NCBI GenBank assembly: GCA_937922655.1
Contig: CALAJH010000005.1
Coordinates: forward strand, 124,001-188,000
Length of the DNA stretch: 64,000 bases
Direction of reading: 5' to 3'
Origin: an uncultured Bacteroidia bacterium
Lineage (GTDB): Bacteria; Bacteroidota; Bacteroidia; J057; CALAJH01
Part shown: positions 32,814-44,645 of the stretch, in pieces
Numbering within the stretch: position 1 is the first letter of the stretch
How the letters are laid out: every line of letters begins with the position of its first letter
Translations under genes and position numbers: made by a program
The notes under the pieces: generated by a model
Seen by the model: the letters and a program-made list of their open reading frames with translations, nothing else
Told to the model about the DNA's origin: nothing
Database searches by the model: none

Positions 32814-35800
32814 TTACCGGCGTATTTCGATTTTATGGTCGCGGGGCCGGCCGCCCGAATCGAGGCGCAGGAGGTAAAGGCCGTTGGCGAGTTCGGGGGG
32901 AAGGCGCCATGCGTGGCGCGGTGCGGCGGCCGAGGCGTACGTCGCCACCCGTTCGCCCAAAACGTTGAAGAGTTCGGCGCGCAATTCCAACGGTGCGTCG
33001 AAATCCAAGTACAAAACGCCGTCCGTCGGGTTGGGGAAAAGCCGGATTGCCGAAAGGTTGTTTTCACGCCCAAGACCCGAAACAACGGTCAGTCGCAGGG
33101 TGTCGGCCGTCGAACAGATTTCCGAACCCGTGATTAACACGACGGCCGCCTCGCCGATTTGGTCAAAGGTGTAGGTAACGTAGCGGGTTTCGTATATCGC
33201 GCCGCCGCCGAAGTCCCACAAACGCCGCGTCGCGCCCTGCGTGCGGTCTTCAAATTCAATCGGCACGCCGACGCGCACCGTATCCCCGCCGCCGACCACC
33301 CCAAAGTCCGGGTCAAAATATTGGACGAATATTTGATATTGGCGGTCGTTGGTGCATCCGGCGGACGAAACCCCAACGACCGTGTACATCGTCGATTCGG
33401 TCGGGGAAACGACGATGCTTTGTCCCTGTTGCCAAAAACCGCCGGGGGCAAACCATTCGTACCCCGAACCGCCGAAAGCCTCCAAACGCACCGATTCCCC
33501 CCGGCATATCGCCGTGCGTTCCGAACCCACCGTGATTACGGGCAAAGGATGCACGACGATGTAGTTGTTCAGCGTTTGGGTGTCTTCGCCGTGAACGTTG
33601 GAAACCGTCAAACTTACGCTGTAAGTCCCCGGCGTGGGATACATCACACTAACGACGTTGCCCGTGGCCGAGGACGGACTGCCGCCGGGAAAGTTCCACA
33701 AATGGTTGGCGTTGCCGGCGTTGGGGCCGACGTTGGTAAAAACGACCGTACGCCCGACGCACACCTGCGTTTGCGACGCGCTGATTTGTGCCACGGGCGC
33801 CAACGGCGAGGCCGTCGTAACGTTGATATCGTCGATGTAAATGTTGTTGTTTTGGTTGGATTCCCCCGGATTGAAAGACGAAAATTTAACCAGCACCGTT
33901 TGCCCCATAAAATTTTGGAGAGAGGTGCGGAAACACGGCACTTCACTCGCATCGTTGCACCAGTCGTTTTCGTTTTGGGGAACGAAGGCTTGGGTCACGG
34001 CGGTGTTGGTGGCCAAAAAGTCGCCCGCCGCGTCGAAAAGCACGTGGGGAAAAGTGGCGCCGCAGTCGGTTGAAAGCCGGACGGTCAAACGGTCGGCATT
34101 GCCCGAGGGTCGCGGACGATACGCGTATTTAAACGACAAAAACGGTACGCCCGCCTCGCCCAAACGTATCGGGGGCGAAATCAATTCTTCGGACGTGTTC
34201 AATTGACTGTTGAGGAAATTGCGGGCGGCGCAGGAGCGCTTGCCCGGCGGATTGCCGCCAATGTTCGAACGGATTTCCCAACCAAACGAATTGTCGGGGT
34301 TGACGAGCGTCCAAGCGTTGGTTTGCAGGGAGTTGGACTCAAAATCTTCGCGAAACGGCAACTCCAACGCCCCGCCGGTGTAATGAACGGTAACGGTACG
34401 CGAGGAGACGCAACCTTCGGGTCCGGTTCCCGTAACGGTATAGACGGTGGTCTGATTGGGCGCGGCGGTAACGACCGCTCCGGTGGTGGCGCTTAATCCC
34501 GTTGCGGGGGCCCAAATGTAAGTGTCGGCGCCCGAGGCCGTCAAAACCACCGCCGTACCGCCGCAAACATAAGCTTCGGCGGGCAAAACGACGACGTCGG
34601 GATTGGGAAAAATTTGTACGGTAATGACGGCGGTGGCGGCGCATTGACCCGGCGCCCCCAAATAACCCGTAACGGTATAAGTCGTCGTTTGGGGGGGAGA
34701 AGCCGTAACGGCCGTGCCGACGGTGTTGCTCAATCCCGTCAAAGGCGCCCAACTGTAATAATCCGCGCCGGCGGCGGTAAGCGTCGTTCCCGCGCCGAAA
34801 CACAACGTATTGTCGCCCGCCGAAACGCTTACCTGCGCCCCCGAAACGACCGTGACATAATTTTCCACCGTTCTGGTGTTCGTACCGTTGGCGTCGGTTA
34901 CGGTCAAAGAAACGGCGTACGTGCCGGGGGTTGAATAGGTGACCGTGGGGTTGGCTTGGGTCGAAGACGAGGGTGTACCGCCCGTAAACGTCCAAAGATA
35001 GGTCGGTATCCCTACCGATGCCGAAGCGTTCTGAAACTCAACGGGTTGATTGACGCAAACGTGGGTGGCGTTGGCGGTAAAGTTGGCCACCGGCGCAGAG
35101 GCCGTACCCGTAATATTTATGTCGTCGATGTAAATGTTGTTGCCGTAGGCGTTGTAAGTTTCGAAGCGCGCCAAAATTTGGTTGCCGCAAAAGGGGGTAA
35201 GATCGACGCTGATGCACGCGCCGCATTGGGCGCAACCCGTGTTGTCGAAACACCAGTCGTTGGCCGTTGCGGGAACGAAGTTTTGGTTGGTGATAAAGCC
35301 CGTGGCAAAACCCGGTCCGCCCCCGTTGGTAAACACGCGTTGGAACGTCGCCCCGCAGTCCGTCGAAACGTAAATAATCAACGAATCGGAAAAATTTTGG
35401 CTGTATCGGCGATAAGCGTGGGACAAAGTCATCGTCGCCGAGGTGTAATTTTGCAAATTAATCGGCCGGGAAACGAGTCCGTCGCGTTGGCCTTGGGAGT
35501 TGTAATTGTAAAGATTGACGTAGGCCGAACGGTTGCCCGGCGGATTGCCGCCGACGTTCGAACGTATCGTCCATGTCGTAGCGTTGTCGGGGTTGTCAAT
35601 CGACCACGCGTTGGAGGCAAAGCTGTTGGACTCAAAATTTTCGGTAAAAGGCAGTCCGACGGCGGGGGGCATGACGGTGAAGGTCAGGCGTATGGTATCG
35701 TTAAAGGCGTATTGGTCTTGTTGGCCGTTGGGCGAGCCGGCGTAAACGGCCAAGGTGTGCTGGCCTACGGAAACCAAAATCGGGGGCAAATCGACGGCGG

Positions 35801-37361
35801 CGGTTTGGCCTTGCGGCACGTTGCCCGTAAAGGGGAGCGTGGCCCACGGCTCGTTGTCGATGCGGTAACCGACGACGGCGGAGGTCAGCGTGTTTTGGCC
35901 GTTGTTATAGATGCGCACGCGCGGGTTGAGGTTGCCCGTGCAAACGAAGGGGGGCGGCGAAACGACTTGACTAACGGCTACGTCGTAATCCAAGACCAGC
36001 GGCGGGGCGCAGGCGAGCGTGTTGCGGGCGTCGATGCGCCCCGCGCCCAACTGATTGACGTAATTGGGATTGATGCCGTTGATATTGACCGCGCCCGACT
36101 GTAAACAACTCAGTACTTCGGCGGGGGTAAGGTTGGGGTTGTAGGAAAGCAACAGGCCCGCCAAGCCCGCGACCAACGGACAGGCCATCGAGGTACCGCT
36201 TTGGTTGCCATAGGCGGTGTTGGAGCCGGCGAGCGTTGAACGGATGTTCACCCCGGGCGCCGATATGTCCACCCAACCGCCAAAGTTGGAAAAAGACGCC
36301 TTGCGGTCTTGGTTGTCGGTGGCGGCGACGGAAATGACGTTGGGAGAGTTGGCGGGGAAAAACTGGGTGGAGACGTTGTCGTTGCCGGCGGCGCCGACCA
36401 AAACGATGCCTTGGTTGTTGGCGAAGTTAAAGAGGTTGTTGCCAAAACTTCCCGGATTGCCCGTGCCGCCCCACGACATACTGATAACCCGCGCGCGGGC
36501 GGCGATGGCGTATTGCACGCCGTCGTAGCCCTCGTGAATGTACGGCCCGGGGTCGCTGTCGTAGGTGCATTTGACGGCGATGATGCGGATGTTGAAACCA
36601 ATCGAAGCGACGCCGATACCGTTGTTGGAGGCGGCGCCGGCAATACCCGCGCAGTGCGTGCCATGGGTAAAGACGGTGTTGGACACGCTGGCGGCGGGCG
36701 GATTGGGGTCGTTGTCGCCGGGCGATTGGGCGTTGGTTCCGGCCACGTCCCAGCCGTGGACGTCGTCGATGTAGCCGTTGGCGTCGTCGTCGACGCCGTT
36801 GCCCGGCACCTCAAGCGGATTGACCCATTTGACGGGGTCGAGGTCTTGGTGGGTGATGCGCACCGCGTCGTCGACGATGGCGACGGTAATCGCCGACGAA
36901 CCCGTGGACAAATCCCACGCCGCGGGCGCGTTGATGCGCGGCAAGTGCCACTGTTGGTTGTAAGTCGGGTCGTTGGGGACGAGCGCCTGCTTGAACAGCG
37001 GCGATTTTTCCGCCAATTCCACGTAACTCAACGATTCGATTTCTTTGAGGAACGCCTCTATAAGGTATTTTTGATGGAACTTTACTTTATAATAGCGTTG
37101 AAGGGTGGGGTCGGGAAGGATGGAGGCTTTGGACAGCTCGAAAATTTGATATTTTTCGGCCATACGCACCCACTCCGGGGCTTTGGCCAAGGCGGATTTG
37201 ACCTCGACGTTGTCCCACGGACGGACGGTCGGCAAGGCGTCTTTGTGGGAAGGAGCCACCCGAAAATATAAAAATCCGTCCCGATACTCTTCATAAACGG
37301 TTTGAGACCATGCAGGAGTCGAAATTAGCCACGCCCAAATGAGGTAAATTCCTTGTTTCAT
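32814..37361 (-). CDS. subtilisin-like serine protease with PKD modules and type A sorting domain
   Basis: 1515 residues. Signal peptide 1-20 (MKQGIYLIWAWLISTPAWSQ), a propeptide to ~135, then an S8 catalytic domain at ~140-445. The triad is Asp164 in AIVDDAV, His233 in FTHGTHCAGI and Ser391 in SGTSMACPL, with oxyanion Asn327 (GAAGNDN). Next are a CARDB-like domain (~460-570), two related jelly-roll modules that both begin LPF-x-E-(N/D)-FESNS, PKD-type domains, and short modules with Y-x-W motifs. It ends in a type A sorting domain (RLFPNPTDGVLYLDF to the end). It is probably exported by the type IX system and either anchored or released. All catalytic residues are present. Confidence 0.93.
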   Translation of the reverse strand: MKQGIYLIWAWLISTPAWSQTVYEEYRDGFLYFRVAPSHKDALPTVRPWDNVEVKSALAKAPEWVRMAEKYQIFELSKASILPDPTLQRYYKVKFHQKYLIEAFLKEIESLSYVELAEKSPLFKQALVPNDPTYNQQWHLPRINAPAAWDLSTGSSAITVAIVDDAVRITHQDLDPVKWVNPLEVPGNGVDDDANGYIDDVHGWDVAGTNAQSPGDNDPNPPAASVSNTVFTHGTHCAGIAGAASNNGIGVASIGFNIRIIAVKCTYDSDPGPYIHEGYDGVQYAIAARARVISMSWGGTGNPGSFGNNLFNFANNQGIVLVGAAGNDNVSTQFFPANSPNVISVAATDNQDRKASFSNFGGWVDISAPGVNIRSTLAGSNTAYGNQSGTSMACPLVAGLAGLLLSYNPNLTPAEVLSCLQSGAVNINGINPNYVNQLGAGRIDARNTLACAPPLVLDYDVAVSQVVSPPPFVCTGNLNPRVRIYNNGQNTLTSAVVGYRIDNEPWATLPFTGNVPQGQTAAVDLPPILVSVGQHTLAVYAGSPNGQQDQYAFNDTIRLTFTVMPPAVGLPFTENFESNSFASNAWSIDNPDNATTWTIRSNVGGNPPGNRSAYVNLYNYNSQGQRDGLVSRPINLQNYTSATMTLSHAYRRYSQNFSDSLIIYVSTDCGATFQRVFTNGGGPGFATGFITNQNFVPATANDWCFDNTGCAQCGACISVDLTPFCGNQILARFETYNAYGNNIYIDDINITGTASAPVANFTANATHVCVNQPVEFQNASASVGIPTYLWTFTGGTPSSSTQANPTVTYSTPGTYAVSLTVTDANGTNTRTVENYVTVVSGAQVSVSAGDNTLCFGAGTTLTAAGADYYSWAPLTGLSNTVGTAVTASPPQTTTYTVTGYLGAPGQCAATAVITVQIFPNPDVVVLPAEAYVCGGTAVVLTASGADTYIWAPATGLSATTGAVVTAAPNQTTVYTVTGTGPEGCVSSRTVTVHYTGGALELPFREDFESNSLQTNAWTLVNPDNSFGWEIRSNIGGNPPGKRSCAARNFLNSQLNTSEELISPPIRLGEAGVPFLSFKYAYRPRPSGNADRLTVRLSTDCGATFPHVLFDAAGDFLATNTAVTQAFVPQNENDWCNDASEVPCFRTSLQNFMGQTVLVKFSSFNPGESNQNNNIYIDDINVTTASPLAPVAQISASQTQVCVGRTVVFTNVGPNAGNANHLWNFPGGSPSSATGNVVSVMYPTPGTYSVSLTVSNVHGEDTQTLNNYIVVHPLPVITVGSERTAICRGESVRLEAFGGSGYEWFAPGGFWQQGQSIVVSPTESTMYTVVGVSSAGCTNDRQYQIFVQYFDPDFGVVGGGDTVRVGVPIEFEDRTQGATRRLWDFGGGAIYETRYVTYTFDQIGEAAVVLITGSEICSTADTLRLTVVSGLGRENNLSAIRLFPNPTDGVLYLDFDAPLELRAELFNVLGERVATYASAAAPRHAWRLPPELANGLYLLRLDSGGRPRDHKIEIRR

Positions 37362-37555
37362 GTCGTTTTTTGAAATGGAATGCTAAGATAACAACAATTT
37401 GTTGAAACAAAAAATTACTGCTTAGTTGGCGGAATTTTTAGAATATTTGCAAACCCAACGTCAAGAAACGTTTTAATACAAAACCGAAAAACAAGAGCCG
37501 CAACAAAATAGCGCCGTGCATGCGGCCGGCGGCGCAAAGACAAATACGTTCTTTA

Positions 37556-37581
37556 AACGTTCGTTCAAAAGAACGAACGTT
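37556..37581. repeat. perfect inverted repeat, 11-bp arms
   Basis: AACGTTCGTTC (37556-37566) and GAACGAACGTT (37571-37581) around AAAA. There is no U-rich tail, so it looks more like an operator or structured DNA site than a terminator. Confidence 0.85.
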
Positions 37582-37700
37582 AGAGCGGTTCCGCCGATTC
37601 GTTCGTAAAACCATTTAACAAGCAATTTCAACTAAAAGCGGTTTCAACAATCCTTGCACAAAGTGCATGGTTTTGCTTTGCGTGTTTGAATTTTTACAAT

Positions 37701-37718
37701 ATTTACGTGCACGTAAAT
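37701..37718. promoter_or_regulatory. 18-bp perfect palindrome
   Basis: ATTTACGTGCACGTAAAT is self-complementary with no spacer, a typical dimeric-regulator operator form. It lies about 330 bp before the restriction endonuclease start. Confidence 0.5.
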
Positions 37719-38048
37719 CCAAACATAGTAGGAATTTCATAATGCAAATATGTCTTTGAAGCTACGAACGTCTTTGGATTATTATCGGTTTCACGCCGCC
37801 GGCTTTTCATTTCTTTACAACATACGTAACCACAAAATGCATCCCAAAAACAATATGTCGAATATGCAAATCAACTCCCTGTCGATGGCTAGGCGCCCAC
37901 GAGCGCAACTTGACGGAAGCGATATTTCAATTGCGGGAAAAAATGTAACCACGTCAAACGCAACATTCTTGCCGACTACGTTTAGAAAAACCTTGACGAC
38001 AATGCCCTACTTATCCACGAGATAACCCATTAAATAGTATGCGCGACA

Positions 38049-39160
38049 ATGGCTTCAATGGATTTGGCGAATGCCGGCCTGTTTGGAATTAAAAACAGCA
38101 ACCGGGATTTCACTCAACAGTCGAGTTGGGGTAAAAATCAATTTAACTCGGCGTTTCCGGTTGCCTTACTGTGTTATTTTCACTCTAAGGGAATGGAATG
38201 CGTTTATTTGACGTCTCAAAAAGACGGAACGATAAAACAATCTTCTATTTCCCCCTCGAATGTATTGGGGATGAAATGCGACGATGCGGATATTTATTTT
38301 TCGTTTGAAAGTCCGCTTTCCCTTTACCAAGAAGTGTTGGTGGGCAGGCCTCCGGCGATTGACTTGGTGGTAGCCAAGAAAGACAAAACGGAAAAAACAA
38401 AGAGATTCGCGGTTTGGAAATCAAACTAACGGCCGTTCCGGACAACGTAACCTCGTCGTTGAAAGAAGAAGATTACGGCCCTGAAATCGTATTTCGACAG
38501 CCAACCATAGCTTACTTGGCCTCAAACTTGGCGCTACACTTCAAAAATAAACGTGCCGAACTTCGAAGCATTTTCGGAAGAAAACTCGACGTTGTCAAAG
38601 ATTGGAAGAATCCCAACGACGTGCTGCTTTCCCTACCCCAAATCCGTGAAACACTTAACGAAATTTGCGACCATCTGCAATCGAATCAAATCCCATTATT
38701 GGTACAACCAATATGGAAAACACTTGGAACGACCTCGATTTTATGCGAGAACTGTTTGGATATATTCGTTTGGAGCGATATCGCATTCACCCGGCTTATT
38801 CTCGACCACATCGCCGACAAAGTCGAAAAGGCCGCAAGTGTAGACAGGCCCGTTCGGTCCGCAATTTGGCTCACAAAAATGCTTTACGATTATCATCAAA
38901 CGGGATACATAAATTACACCTCCCTATTCGATCAACTTTCTTACGGTACTAAAAACGACAAAGCCTTCGCCGTTTCCGGTAAAGTAACGAACCGTTTTTT
39001 GGGTGGCTCGAACCTTGCGCGACCCCGTATACACAAAAACGAAATTTCCAACATCATATTAGGCGACGGCATTCGATTCTTAAGTCCCGAGCGTCGATTC
39101 GACGCGGCGATAGCGCTAAACTTCGAAGTTGGTCGTCACACAACATGTCAAACATCATGA
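38049..39160 (+). pseudogene. HindVP-family type II restriction endonuclease, frame-disrupted
   Basis: Two abutting frames together encode one HindVP-type endonuclease of about 370 residues. The first (38049-38429) has GLFGIKNSNRDFTQQSSWGKNQFNSAFP and the acidic PAIDLVV. It then leaves frame and stops. The second (from about 38405 to 39160) begins RGLEIKLTAVPD, the catalytic E-x-K strand, and continues with EDYGPEIVFRQPTIAYLA. One missing base explains the break; adding an A to the A6 run at 38392-38397 would read KNKEIRGLEIKL without interruption. As written, neither half holds the whole PD-(D/E)XK site. The C-terminal stop overlaps the methyltransferase start (ATGA). Confidence 0.85.
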
Positions 39161-40095
39161 GAACCGTGGATGTATTTTCGGGATGCGGCGGATTGTCTCT
39201 AGGTTTTGAAAAAGCGGGATACGAGGTGCAAATGGCATTCGACGCATGGAAACCCGCAGTCGAAACCTATCGTGCAAATTTTGCCCACCCTTCCTTCTTG
39301 GCCGACATGACGGACGACTCGGTCTTCGAACAGATTTTAGCGTTGGCGCCGGAAACGATAATCGGTGGGCCGCCGTGCCAAGATTTTTCCAGCGCGGGTA
39401 AACGCGACGAACACGGTGGACGCGGCAGCCTCACGCTTCGTTTCGCCGAATTGATTCGTGTAGCCAAACCTCAATGCTTTCTGATGGAAAACGTCGACCG
39501 AATCGTCAAGACGCAAACCTATCGTCGGCTTTTGCGTCTGGTCGTCGATGCGGGATACCGGTTTTACGAAACGGTCTTGGACGCGGCGTATTGCGGCGTA
39601 CCTCAACATCGCAAGCGTTACTTTCTTTTCGGCGGAACAGGAGACTTTCAGCCCAACGCCGTCGCCCGCTACATCGAAAAAAATCTTAGCACTGAGGCCA
39701 TGACTCCGCGAAAATACCTCGGCTCCGAACTCAAAATAGAAAATTATTATCGACATCCGCGTTCGTACGCCCGGCGCGCGGTGTTTTCGACCGACGAACC
39801 AAGCCCAACGATTCGCGGCGTCAACCGCCCGATTCCCAAAGGATATCCGGGGCATCCCGGCGACTCCGTACCCCCCAACACTCCCGGTCTGCGCCCTCTT
39901 ACCTTCTATGAACGTATGCGCATTCAAAGCTTCCCACCCGAATTTGTCTTCGTCGGCACGAAAACCGAAAACGAACAAATGGGCAACGCCGTACCGCCGG
40001 AATTAGCGGCGTTTGTGGCGCGAGCATTGACCGCAGGGTGCACCGGCGAAGCGACAAACGCTTTTGCCCCCACGCTTTTTGCCACGGCGGATTGA
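39157..40095 (+). CDS. DNA cytosine-5 methyltransferase (restriction-modification partner)
   Basis: 312 residues from the ATG at 39157, whose ATGA overlaps the stop of the endonuclease frame; an ATG at 39145 adds four residues. All core motifs are present: I (VDVFSGCGGLSLGFEKAG), IV with catalytic Cys74 (GGPPCQDFS), VI (FLMENV), VIII (PQHRKRYFLFGG), a short target-recognition region (~190-245), IX (PTIRGVNRPIP) and X (QMGNAVPPELA). It methylates cytosine at C5 and protects from the cognate HindVP-type enzyme. Characterised relatives of HindVP/HgiDI act on GRCGYC; whether this enzyme does is inference. It appears intact. Confidence 0.95.
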   Translation: MRTVDVFSGCGGLSLGFEKAGYEVQMAFDAWKPAVETYRANFAHPSFLADMTDDSVFEQILALAPETIIGGPPCQDFSSAGKRDEHGGRGSLTLRFAELIRVAKPQCFLMENVDRIVKTQTYRRLLRLVVDAGYRFYETVLDAAYCGVPQHRKRYFLFGGTGDFQPNAVARYIEKNLSTEAMTPRKYLGSELKIENYYRHPRSYARRAVFSTDEPSPTIRGVNRPIPKGYPGHPGDSVPPNTPGLRPLTFYERMRIQSFPPEFVFVGTKTENEQMGNAVPPELAAFVARALTAGCTGEATNAFAPTLFATAD

Positions 40096-41903: not shown

Positions 41904-42866
41904 CTAATAAGACCAAAGACTATGCTCGAACTCAACCATTGCGAGACGACGACGTTCGGCCAGTTCCTTGGAGTCGATGTTGTCGCGGGAGAGGTTGATG
42001 ATATAGCTGTTGAACAAACGAAGTTCGACGATTTCGCGCATACTGCGGTACTCGGCGTCGTTGTGTTTGGAAGGCCATTGGATTTCGTCGAGACAATCTT
42101 TGATGTCGTCGTAACGGAAGGCGACCACGGGCCTGTCGCGAATAGCTCCTTGGTCGGGAGAGGGCACGTAATACAAACGAATGTATTGAATATCGTAGAA
42201 CATATCCGATTTGTTTTTTTCGAATATACGGTCTTCGATAAATTCAATGACGCTCGTCAGGTTGGAGTAGGTCTCTTTGAATTCGTCTTTGCTTTGGGTG
42301 GACAGCACGTCGTCGACACCCGGTTCCTCGGGACCGCTGTCTTCGTCGACGCCAAAATCGTCTTCTTCTTCCATTCCGGCGTCCGTGGCTTCCTCGGTTG
42401 CGGTGGAACCGCCTTGGTCGCTGATTTTGGCAAGGTTGGCTTTGAGGGCGTTTACCGTACCGTCGTCGGCAAGCAGGCGGTCGAGTTCGTCGGGTTCGTA
42501 AGCTTGGAAGCGGCCTTCTTCAAAGCAGCGTAACAAACCGTATACGATGCCCGATTTGGTGTCGAAATGTTTGTCGCGGTTGGGATAGTCCCCTTCCTTG
42601 CCCATGTAAATCTGCTTTTCCTCTTCTTGAAGTTGTTTGTTAACTTTCTCGTTGAGGTCTATGCGGAAAAGCACCTTACGGCGCCAAACATGGTCGTCAA
42701 TACGGGGATAGTAGTTGCGTCCATCTTTGGCATGGACTTCTTTAACGGGCGGGGGCTGGTCGAACGGAAAGTCCGAACGACGCACGCCCTTTTCGTTAAA
42801 GTTTTGTGCCCACATCCCTTGGGCCGTGGCACAGCAGATGGCGATAATCGCCGTTAACGTTTTCAT
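41904..42866 (-). CDS. gldN: type IX secretion / gliding protein GldN (PorN)
   Basis: 320 residues from the ATG at 42864-42866. A signal peptide (MKTLTAIIAICCATAQGMWAQ) is followed by the GldN core: VWRRKVLFRIDLNEKVNKQL, GLLRCFEEGRFQAYE, VIEFIEDRIFEKNKSDMFYDIQYIRLYYVPS and a C-terminal MREIVELRLFNSYIINL. An acidic insertion (EEATDAGMEEEDDFGVDEDSG, residues ~160-190) breaks up the core. With GldK it forms the periplasmic ring attached to the outer membrane. Last gene of the gldKLMN run, 24 bp after gldM, ending at the shared terminator. Confidence 0.95.
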   Translation of the reverse strand: MKTLTAIIAICCATAQGMWAQNFNEKGVRRSDFPFDQPPPVKEVHAKDGRNYYPRIDDHVWRRKVLFRIDLNEKVNKQLQEEEKQIYMGKEGDYPNRDKHFDTKSGIVYGLLRCFEEGRFQAYEPDELDRLLADDGTVNALKANLAKISDQGGSTATEEATDAGMEEEDDFGVDEDSGPEEPGVDDVLSTQSKDEFKETYSNLTSVIEFIEDRIFEKNKSDMFYDIQYIRLYYVPSPDQGAIRDRPVVAFRYDDIKDCLDEIQWPSKHNDAEYRSMREIVELRLFNSYIINLSRDNIDSKELAERRRLAMVEFEHSLWSY

Positions 42867-42890
42867 ACTTAACAAAATGGTTTTCGTTAA

Positions 42891-44645
42891 CTAATCGGAT
42901 ATGGTGAAAACGAAGGTTTTTTCGGAGGCGCCCATAGGCTCGTCAACGAACTTGCCTTCAAAATTTTTGCGTTGAACTTTATCGACTTCGACGTAAATAA
43001 CCTCGCCTTTTTTCGGGTCGGTCAAAATCGTCGCAAGTTTGATATCCAATTCGGATTCGGGACCGACGGGAGAATCGGCGTAAGACTTGACTTCCGTTGC
43101 GGAACCCAGACCGCTTTTACGGAAAATCTTTACGTTCACCATACGGTAGCGAGCGTCATCGGGAAGGGCCTTGGCAAAGTCGGACTGGGCCGTGACTTTG
43201 AGTTTTACCGTTTGTTTGGCGGATACTTGTGCACTGGCGCCCGCAAGCTGATTTTTACCCGAATACAGAGCCACGGTGGGTTTCGGCGGAGGAACGACGT
43301 TGAAATCCGTTTTTCCAAGTTCTACAACCTGATTGTTCATCTTGTTGTTTACTTGAATAACGCATTTTTTACCCGTGGGTACAACCCGAATTTTGGCGGG
43401 GTCCTTCTTGGACGGAAAAACCTTCGCTTCGGTAGCTTTAAACTCGGGACTAAACAACGAACCCAAGTCCGGGGCTTCGGCCTGCAACTCGTTGCCGCAA
43501 TCCCGATAGAGAATCGTAACGGCGGCGGATGAAAACTTAAAGTTCGGACGACGGACGATAAAATGGTCTTTTACGTCTATAATTTCGTCCGTTCCGTCGG
43601 CTTTGGGAATGCGGACTTTTACGGAATACATTTGTTTGCCGTCGCGTTCGCCGGCTTTGATATTGCGTCCGTCGGCAGTCAATTTTACCAAACCGTATTC
43701 GGGATTTTTGGCGTCCTGCTTTACGCCCGGGCCGGAAAACGTCGCCTTGGAATCTTCGAGCTGGGGTACCACGTAAATTTTGGCTTCGAACGGCATGCCC
43801 GCAACCACAATTTTGGATTCCGGCGCGGGAAATGCCTTCATGCCTTTGATTTTGAATTTTACTTGCCCGAGCTTGCTTTTGAGTACTTCCAGCAATTCGG
43901 TTTCGACAACGGCGATATCCGTTTTCAGCTTTTCCAAAATGGCAACGTTGGCAATGGCCGGGGTATAGTGAAAGGTATAGTATTCCCAAGTTTTGTCTTT
44001 GGCCTCGGTACCTTTCGGCACTTTGGGGTCGTCTTTGGGGTCTACGCACATATACCTAAAATACGGCTTTGCGGGGTCGAGGGTAATCTTTTTGTTGTCG
44101 GGAACGTTGATGTTGCTGTACTCGACGTATTTGGCATTGGCCCAGTCGATGTATTCCTTCAAGGTGTCCCGAATCATTTTCGCCGCCCCCGAACCTCGCC
44201 CGTTGTTCGAATGATCGTCTTTCAATGGATCTTGGGGATGGTACATGAAATAACGATAGTTCATTTCGGTTTGGTCGAGCTGGGCGATGTTCTTGGTAAG
44301 CGTATCGAAACCGGCAATGTCGGGCCGTTGAAGGGCCTTAATGTGGCGTTCGATGTGATCGGTAACCTTGTCCGCAAAACTAGTCACCTCGTTGACCAAG
44401 GGAGGGATAATCTTGATGTTGGCGTTGGGGTTGTTTTGCAACTGCTCCTCAACGGTGTGTTTGATATTTTCCGCCAATGCGTGATTTTTTTCGCCAAGTT
44501 TTTCCGACGAACTTCTCAACGAGTTGGCGATGGTCAGAAAGCTTAACAAGATTTCCTTACTCACGTTCAACGCCAAAAGCGCCGTGAGTACAAGGTACAT
44601 CATGTTAATCATTTTCTGCCGTGGACTTAGCTTTCCTCCTGCCAT
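42891..44645 (-). CDS. gldM: type IX secretion / gliding motor protein GldM (PorM)
   Basis: 584 residues. The N-terminus MAGGKLSPRQKMINMMYLV leads into a single membrane helix (YLVLTALLALNVSKEILLSF). The periplasmic part has a long helical domain (D1, ~35-220) followed by beta-rich domains D2-D4, including GMPFEAKIYVVPQLE, VKVRIPKADGTDEIIDVKDHFIV and GASAQVSAKQTVKLKVTA. With GldL it forms the inner-membrane motor that uses proton-motive force, and its periplasmic arm reaches the GldKN ring. It starts 9 bp after gldL and precedes gldN by 24 bp. Confidence 0.97.
   Translation of the reverse strand: MAGGKLSPRQKMINMMYLVLTALLALNVSKEILLSFLTIANSLRSSSEKLGEKNHALAENIKHTVEEQLQNNPNANIKIIPPLVNEVTSFADKVTDHIERHIKALQRPDIAGFDTLTKNIAQLDQTEMNYRYFMYHPQDPLKDDHSNNGRGSGAAKMIRDTLKEYIDWANAKYVEYSNINVPDNKKITLDPAKPYFRYMCVDPKDDPKVPKGTEAKDKTWEYYTFHYTPAIANVAILEKLKTDIAVVETELLEVLKSKLGQVKFKIKGMKAFPAPESKIVVAGMPFEAKIYVVPQLEDSKATFSGPGVKQDAKNPEYGLVKLTADGRNIKAGERDGKQMYSVKVRIPKADGTDEIIDVKDHFIVRRPNFKFSSAAVTILYRDCGNELQAEAPDLGSLFSPEFKATEAKVFPSKKDPAKIRVVPTGKKCVIQVNNKMNNQVVELGKTDFNVVPPPKPTVALYSGKNQLAGASAQVSAKQTVKLKVTAQSDFAKALPDDARYRMVNVKIFRKSGLGSATEVKSYADSPVGPESELDIKLATILTDPKKGEVIYVEVDKVQRKNFEGKFVDEPMGASEKTFVFTISD

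Follow-up and report, generated by a model that had tools for sequence, protein, structure and literature searches.

This locus raises the question whether a Type II restriction-modification (R-M) pair whose endonuclease gene is divided between two reading frames still restricts DNA, or whether the break represents a lesion, a switch or an artefact. Coordinates in the text and in Table 1 refer to the window, i.e. the whole 64-kb stretch of DNA that was analysed.

Layout of the locus and the split endonuclease

ORF1 and ORF2 gave collinear matches to the RE_HindVP family (PF09519; profile length 332) in frames one base apart, so that the family was matched over its whole length as two pieces, both of which were labelled REase_II by PADLOC. 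When all six frames of the entire genome were searched, only these two PF09519 pieces (profile positions 1-96 and 85-326) were recovered. Since the matches are collinear and contiguous in two frames, they are not due to chance, and at the level of the sequence it was confirmed that ORF1 and ORF2 are two pieces of one endonuclease of the RE_HindVP (BsaHI/HgiDI) type.

Table 1. Features of the R-M locus (positions within the window)
Feature	Position	Strand	Basis
Endonuclease, N-terminal piece (ORF1)	38049..38429	+	PF09519 profile 1-94, E 5.6e-23; PADLOC REase_II E 6.9e-30
Stretch with both frames open, must contain the frame break; predicted to encode a variable hairpin loop	38363..38429	+	ORF overlap; strands in the L008 model
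A6 run, likeliest but unproven site of the indel	38392..38397	+	Longest homopolymer in the overlap
Endonuclease, C-terminal piece (ORF2)	38414..39160	+	PF09519 profile 94-326, E 4.8e-88
C5-cytosine DNA methyltransferase, BsaHI type, intact	39157..40095	+	PF00145 E 1.3e-56; PADLOC MTase_II E 4e-114

ORF1 (126 aa) ends in ..AIDLVVAKKDKTEKTKRFAVWKSN*, with the last ~13 residues out of frame before a TAA codon. The frame of ORF2 is open from ~38363 onwards, with a TTG as its first start codon and without an internal stop (265 aa for the open frame versus 248 aa for the piece). All three motifs defined for the BsaHI-type nuclease, WGKNQF, (Q/K)(T/N)DKAF(A/S) and SPERRFD (PMC2413257), were found, the first in ORF1 and the others in ORF2, where the second reads KNDKAFA (within TKNDKAFA). 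ORF1 also carries the acidic PAIDLVV strand and ORF2 the catalytic LEIKL strand; the ID and EIK residues are thus placed in different pieces and different frames. The preliminary description had reported a nuclease split into two frames one base apart and broken between the acidic strand and the ExK motif, and both statements held.

Comparison was made with 17 full-length relatives (29-43% identical) from Patescibacteria, Bacteroidales, further genomes from this class and phylum, and enterobacterial plasmids. The catalytic Asp and the ExK motif lie in one polypeptide in 16 of these, the exception being L026 (N replacing D). All 17 continue from the acidic strand to ExK in a single frame, across a loop of varying length, which excludes the possibility, raised earlier, that the family never joins these two segments.

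The E of EIK is encoded at 38417. The break had been placed four codons before EIK, next to an A6 run; the run was located there, inside the ORF overlap, but actually lies 6-7 codons upstream of the E. The second frame across it reads KNKEIRGLEIKL. Judged from the open frames, the true indel could fall anywhere in the roughly 65-base overlap, with the A6 run as its most probable position, being the longest homopolymer.

In an AlphaFold model of the relative L008 (mean pLDDT 64, pTM 0.71), strands 105-109 and 115-123 flank a loop, with D104 at the beginning of the first strand and E120 and K122 on the second. On this model, the position of the break would be the variable hairpin loop between the catalytic-Asp strand and the ExK strand. 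The strand order fits the PD-(D/E)xK fold. Neither a PDB fold search with the L008 model (E<=0.001) nor a PDB sequence search with the nuclease returned a match; given the lack of a fold match, the PD-(D/E)xK assignment rests on PMC2413257.

Methyltransferase, gene overlap and neighbourhood

The methyltransferase was described as intact, and this was borne out: PF00145 was matched over profile positions 1-322 of 324, the C5 motifs I, IV (PCQ), VI (ENV), VIII and X were all found, and 83 of 87 family-invariant residues are kept. A stretch of its recognition domain, YYRHPRSYARRAVFSTDEPSPTIRGVNRPIPKGY, agrees with the GRCGYC signature (R and G/A upstream of T-I; PMC2413257); both this stretch and YYRHPRSYARRAVFS..EPSPTIRGVNRPIPKGY are near-identical in the fetched PF09519-linked methylases, the latter being consistent with the M.BsaHI signature. 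The predicted target of the R-M pair is GRCGYC. Two more C5-cytosine methyltransferases are encoded elsewhere in the genome (C21:15747-16688 and C1:251872-252750).

The methyltransferase ORF was listed from 39145; homology places its start at 39157, giving an ATGA overlap with the endonuclease stop codon at 39158-39160. The overlap proposed earlier was thereby upheld, and the same-order relative L029 shares it; in L012, L013, L015 and L016 the two genes also overlap, by one to four bases. After the break, translation ends at 38429, leaving ~727 nt of message untranslated unless ORF2 starts at TTG 38414. In the PvuII system, the overlapping genes are translated independently and the overlap has no role in translation, and a frameshift there cut downstream expression via transcriptional polarity (PMC2997769). 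Lowered methyltransferase expression, or a loss of coupling, is a plausible consequence of the frame break.

Upstream of the nuclease, 687 bases (37362-38048) hold no convincing gene, a long gap for a dense genome; only a 91-aa ORF without a family match was found there. Further upstream (32814-37361), a gene encodes a very large subtilase that contains PKD domains and weakly matches a secretion tail, and just downstream, on the minus strand (41904-44645), are GldN and GldM genes (gliding motility/type IX secretion). Judged from GldN/GldM and the subtilase, the host is a member of the Bacteroidota with type IX secretion.

Recurrence, age and reading of the break

Genes of the HindVP family are rare, occurring in 6 of 395 class genomes and 8 of 395 phylum genomes (the genome studied here being counted in both). 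Closer relatives were sought in the order, class and phylum; none fell in the same taxonomic family, the set containing no other genome from that family or genus. Searches of viral contigs with the nuclease and the methylase, and of phage records, returned no relatives.

Damage to the nuclease beside an intact methylase was found in five other loci, as a TAA codon (L012 and L019), a frameshift in two E. coli plasmids (L024, CP061256; L060, NC_019078, near the N-terminus) or a change of the catalytic Asp to Asn (L026, NZ_CP148429; IDLV -> INLV). Because these lesions differ in kind and position, they represent independent events. Intact copies are carried by the E. coli plasmids L058 and L059. 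The count leaves out L005, which lacks its N-terminus and lies on a 3x-coverage contig, as well as L021 and L022; the latter two are degraded HindVP nucleases (C-terminal frameshift and 68-aa remnant, respectively) with no BsaHI-type methylase seen nearby. The methylase of L026 has ENVDWA in place of ENVDRA. With the present locus counted, the nuclease is damaged in six of roughly 20 loci of the family. An intact nuclease with a broken methylase was seen in none of the fetched HindVP-family loci, a small sample.

The locus is a Type II R-M pair of the BsaHI/HgiDI/HindVP family whose nuclease was probably killed recently by a single frameshifting indel, leaving a methylase-only remnant. Of the three readings offered earlier (phase-variable off state, recent inactivating mutation with retained methylation, assembly error), the second is the best supported. 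The indel, for which the A6 run is the most likely site, would have hit the loop between the Asp-bearing and ExK strands, and ribosomes would stop after making a 126-aa fragment with the Asp and without ExK. Translation of the downstream methyltransferase could still begin at its own ATG, with a yield probably lowered by the message now left untranslated. We infer that the frameshift is present in the real genome, that cutting has been lost and that methylation, with GRCGYC specificity, has been retained. The cell would then methylate its DNA but no longer restrict; decay in any other direction would be lethal to the host.

The lesion appears to be young. The endonuclease keeps 46 of 47 family-invariant residues (the exception being Pro -> Leu at residue 92) and contains no other stop. 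In a simple simulation of unconstrained change, retention of 46 residues without a stop had a probability of ~0.26 at 1%, 0.07 at 2% and 0.01 at 3% divergence; these low values by 2-3% neutral divergence indicate either a young lesion or an error, with an age for the lesion of probably less than about 2% neutral divergence. The GC content of the endonuclease (43-45%; methyltransferase 55%, genome 54%) suits a foreign cassette. A long-standing footprint of methylation or restriction was sought by site avoidance and deamination in 462 kb and gave no signal: GRCGYC sites were mildly under expectation (O/E 0.90) and their deamination products were not in excess (0.80). Nothing therefore points to an active system of long residence. 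Flanking repeats that might mark an insertion amounted to short chance-like pairs, and promoter and terminator scans gave results close to shuffled expectation.

The alternative that survives best is that the real gene is intact, the R-M system active and the break a sequencing or assembly error. We regard this as unlikely, even though a homopolymer lies at the break, the remainder of the nuclease gene is free of decay and several reported 'broken' R-M genes were explained by sequencing errors (PMC3488263). Against it stand the quality of the genome (marker completeness 100%, contamination 0.74, 84 contigs, 3.58 Mb), the presence of all 27 full-length ABC_tran domains across the genome in a single open frame, and the lack of a second split gene in the 64-kb window (ORF map, coding fraction 0.94), where the sole other suspicious overlap, a trio at 60.6-63.4 kb, comprises three unrelated families. 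An A6 run is also short for a consensus error if the reads were short, although the read type here may differ. As six of roughly 20 family loci have a damaged nuclease, a real lesion has a high prior probability, and it is favoured over an error.

It is very unlikely that the broken frame is functional, with rare restriction through slippage on the A run or association of the fragments, such that the system always methylates and seldom cuts. Two specific alternatives were considered, each of them most improbable. In the first, changes in A6 length would switch the nuclease between an active and a silent state, with methylation always present. Phase variation is classically found at R-M genes, and the homopolymer sits where both frames are open; however, known switch tracts are generally longer than A6, and the tract at the break is ordinary for the window, which contains 59 A6, 20 A7, 4 A8 and 1 A9 runs. 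Nor is a tract retained at this position in the relatives, in which the longest run in the same stretch is usually 3-5 (6 in three, of other bases or at other places). The slippage-prone off state suggested earlier was therefore not supported, the tract being short, common and absent from most relatives, and lacking a slippery heptamer and downstream structure. In the second, a functional enzyme would arise by ribosomal -1 frameshifting, or by initiation at TTG 38414 and assembly of the fragments in trans at the hairpin; the modelled loop would be a split-tolerant place, the TTG lies just upstream of LEIK and both pieces are conserved, but the overlap lacks an X XXY YYZ heptamer in frame (AAA/AAG would allow weak single-tRNA slips at most), the downstream RNA folds slightly worse than shuffles (z +0.79) and thus offers no stimulating structure, no relative uses a two-piece arrangement, and conserved sequence is equally expected of a young lesion.

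The recent loss of the nuclease would make the locus a clean, apparently very young intermediate between a complete R-M system and a methylase without a nuclease. In the small HindVP-family sample, nuclease damage beside an intact methylase is repeated and the reverse unseen, as would be predicted from host survival.

Comparison with known systems

The earlier assignment to a HindVP-type R-M system was supported by the PF09519 and C5-methyltransferase matches. HindVP of Haemophilus influenzae Rd belongs to the same PF09519 family and is likewise the nuclease of an R-M pair, but it was described as inactive and devoid of ExK (PMC2413257), which makes BsaHI/HgiDI the better functional reference; at the present locus, in contrast, ExK is present but severed by the frame break.

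The WGKNQF, DKAF and SPERRFD motifs and the putative ExK are shared with BsaHI, HgiDI and HgiGI, and the BsaHI system likewise has a companion C5 methylase with R and G/A upstream of T-I, which modifies the inner C of GRCGYC (PMC2413257). The present locus differs from BsaHI in that its nuclease frame is broken before ExK and that the endonuclease gene is followed by the methyltransferase gene with an ATGA overlap, whereas the BsaHI genes are separate neighbours and the methylase starts at TTG. The outcome seen here is the same as in L012, L019, L024, L060 and L026, through different lesions. We regard the locus as a genuine but unremarkable instance of decay, of a kind also met in other members of this enzyme family.
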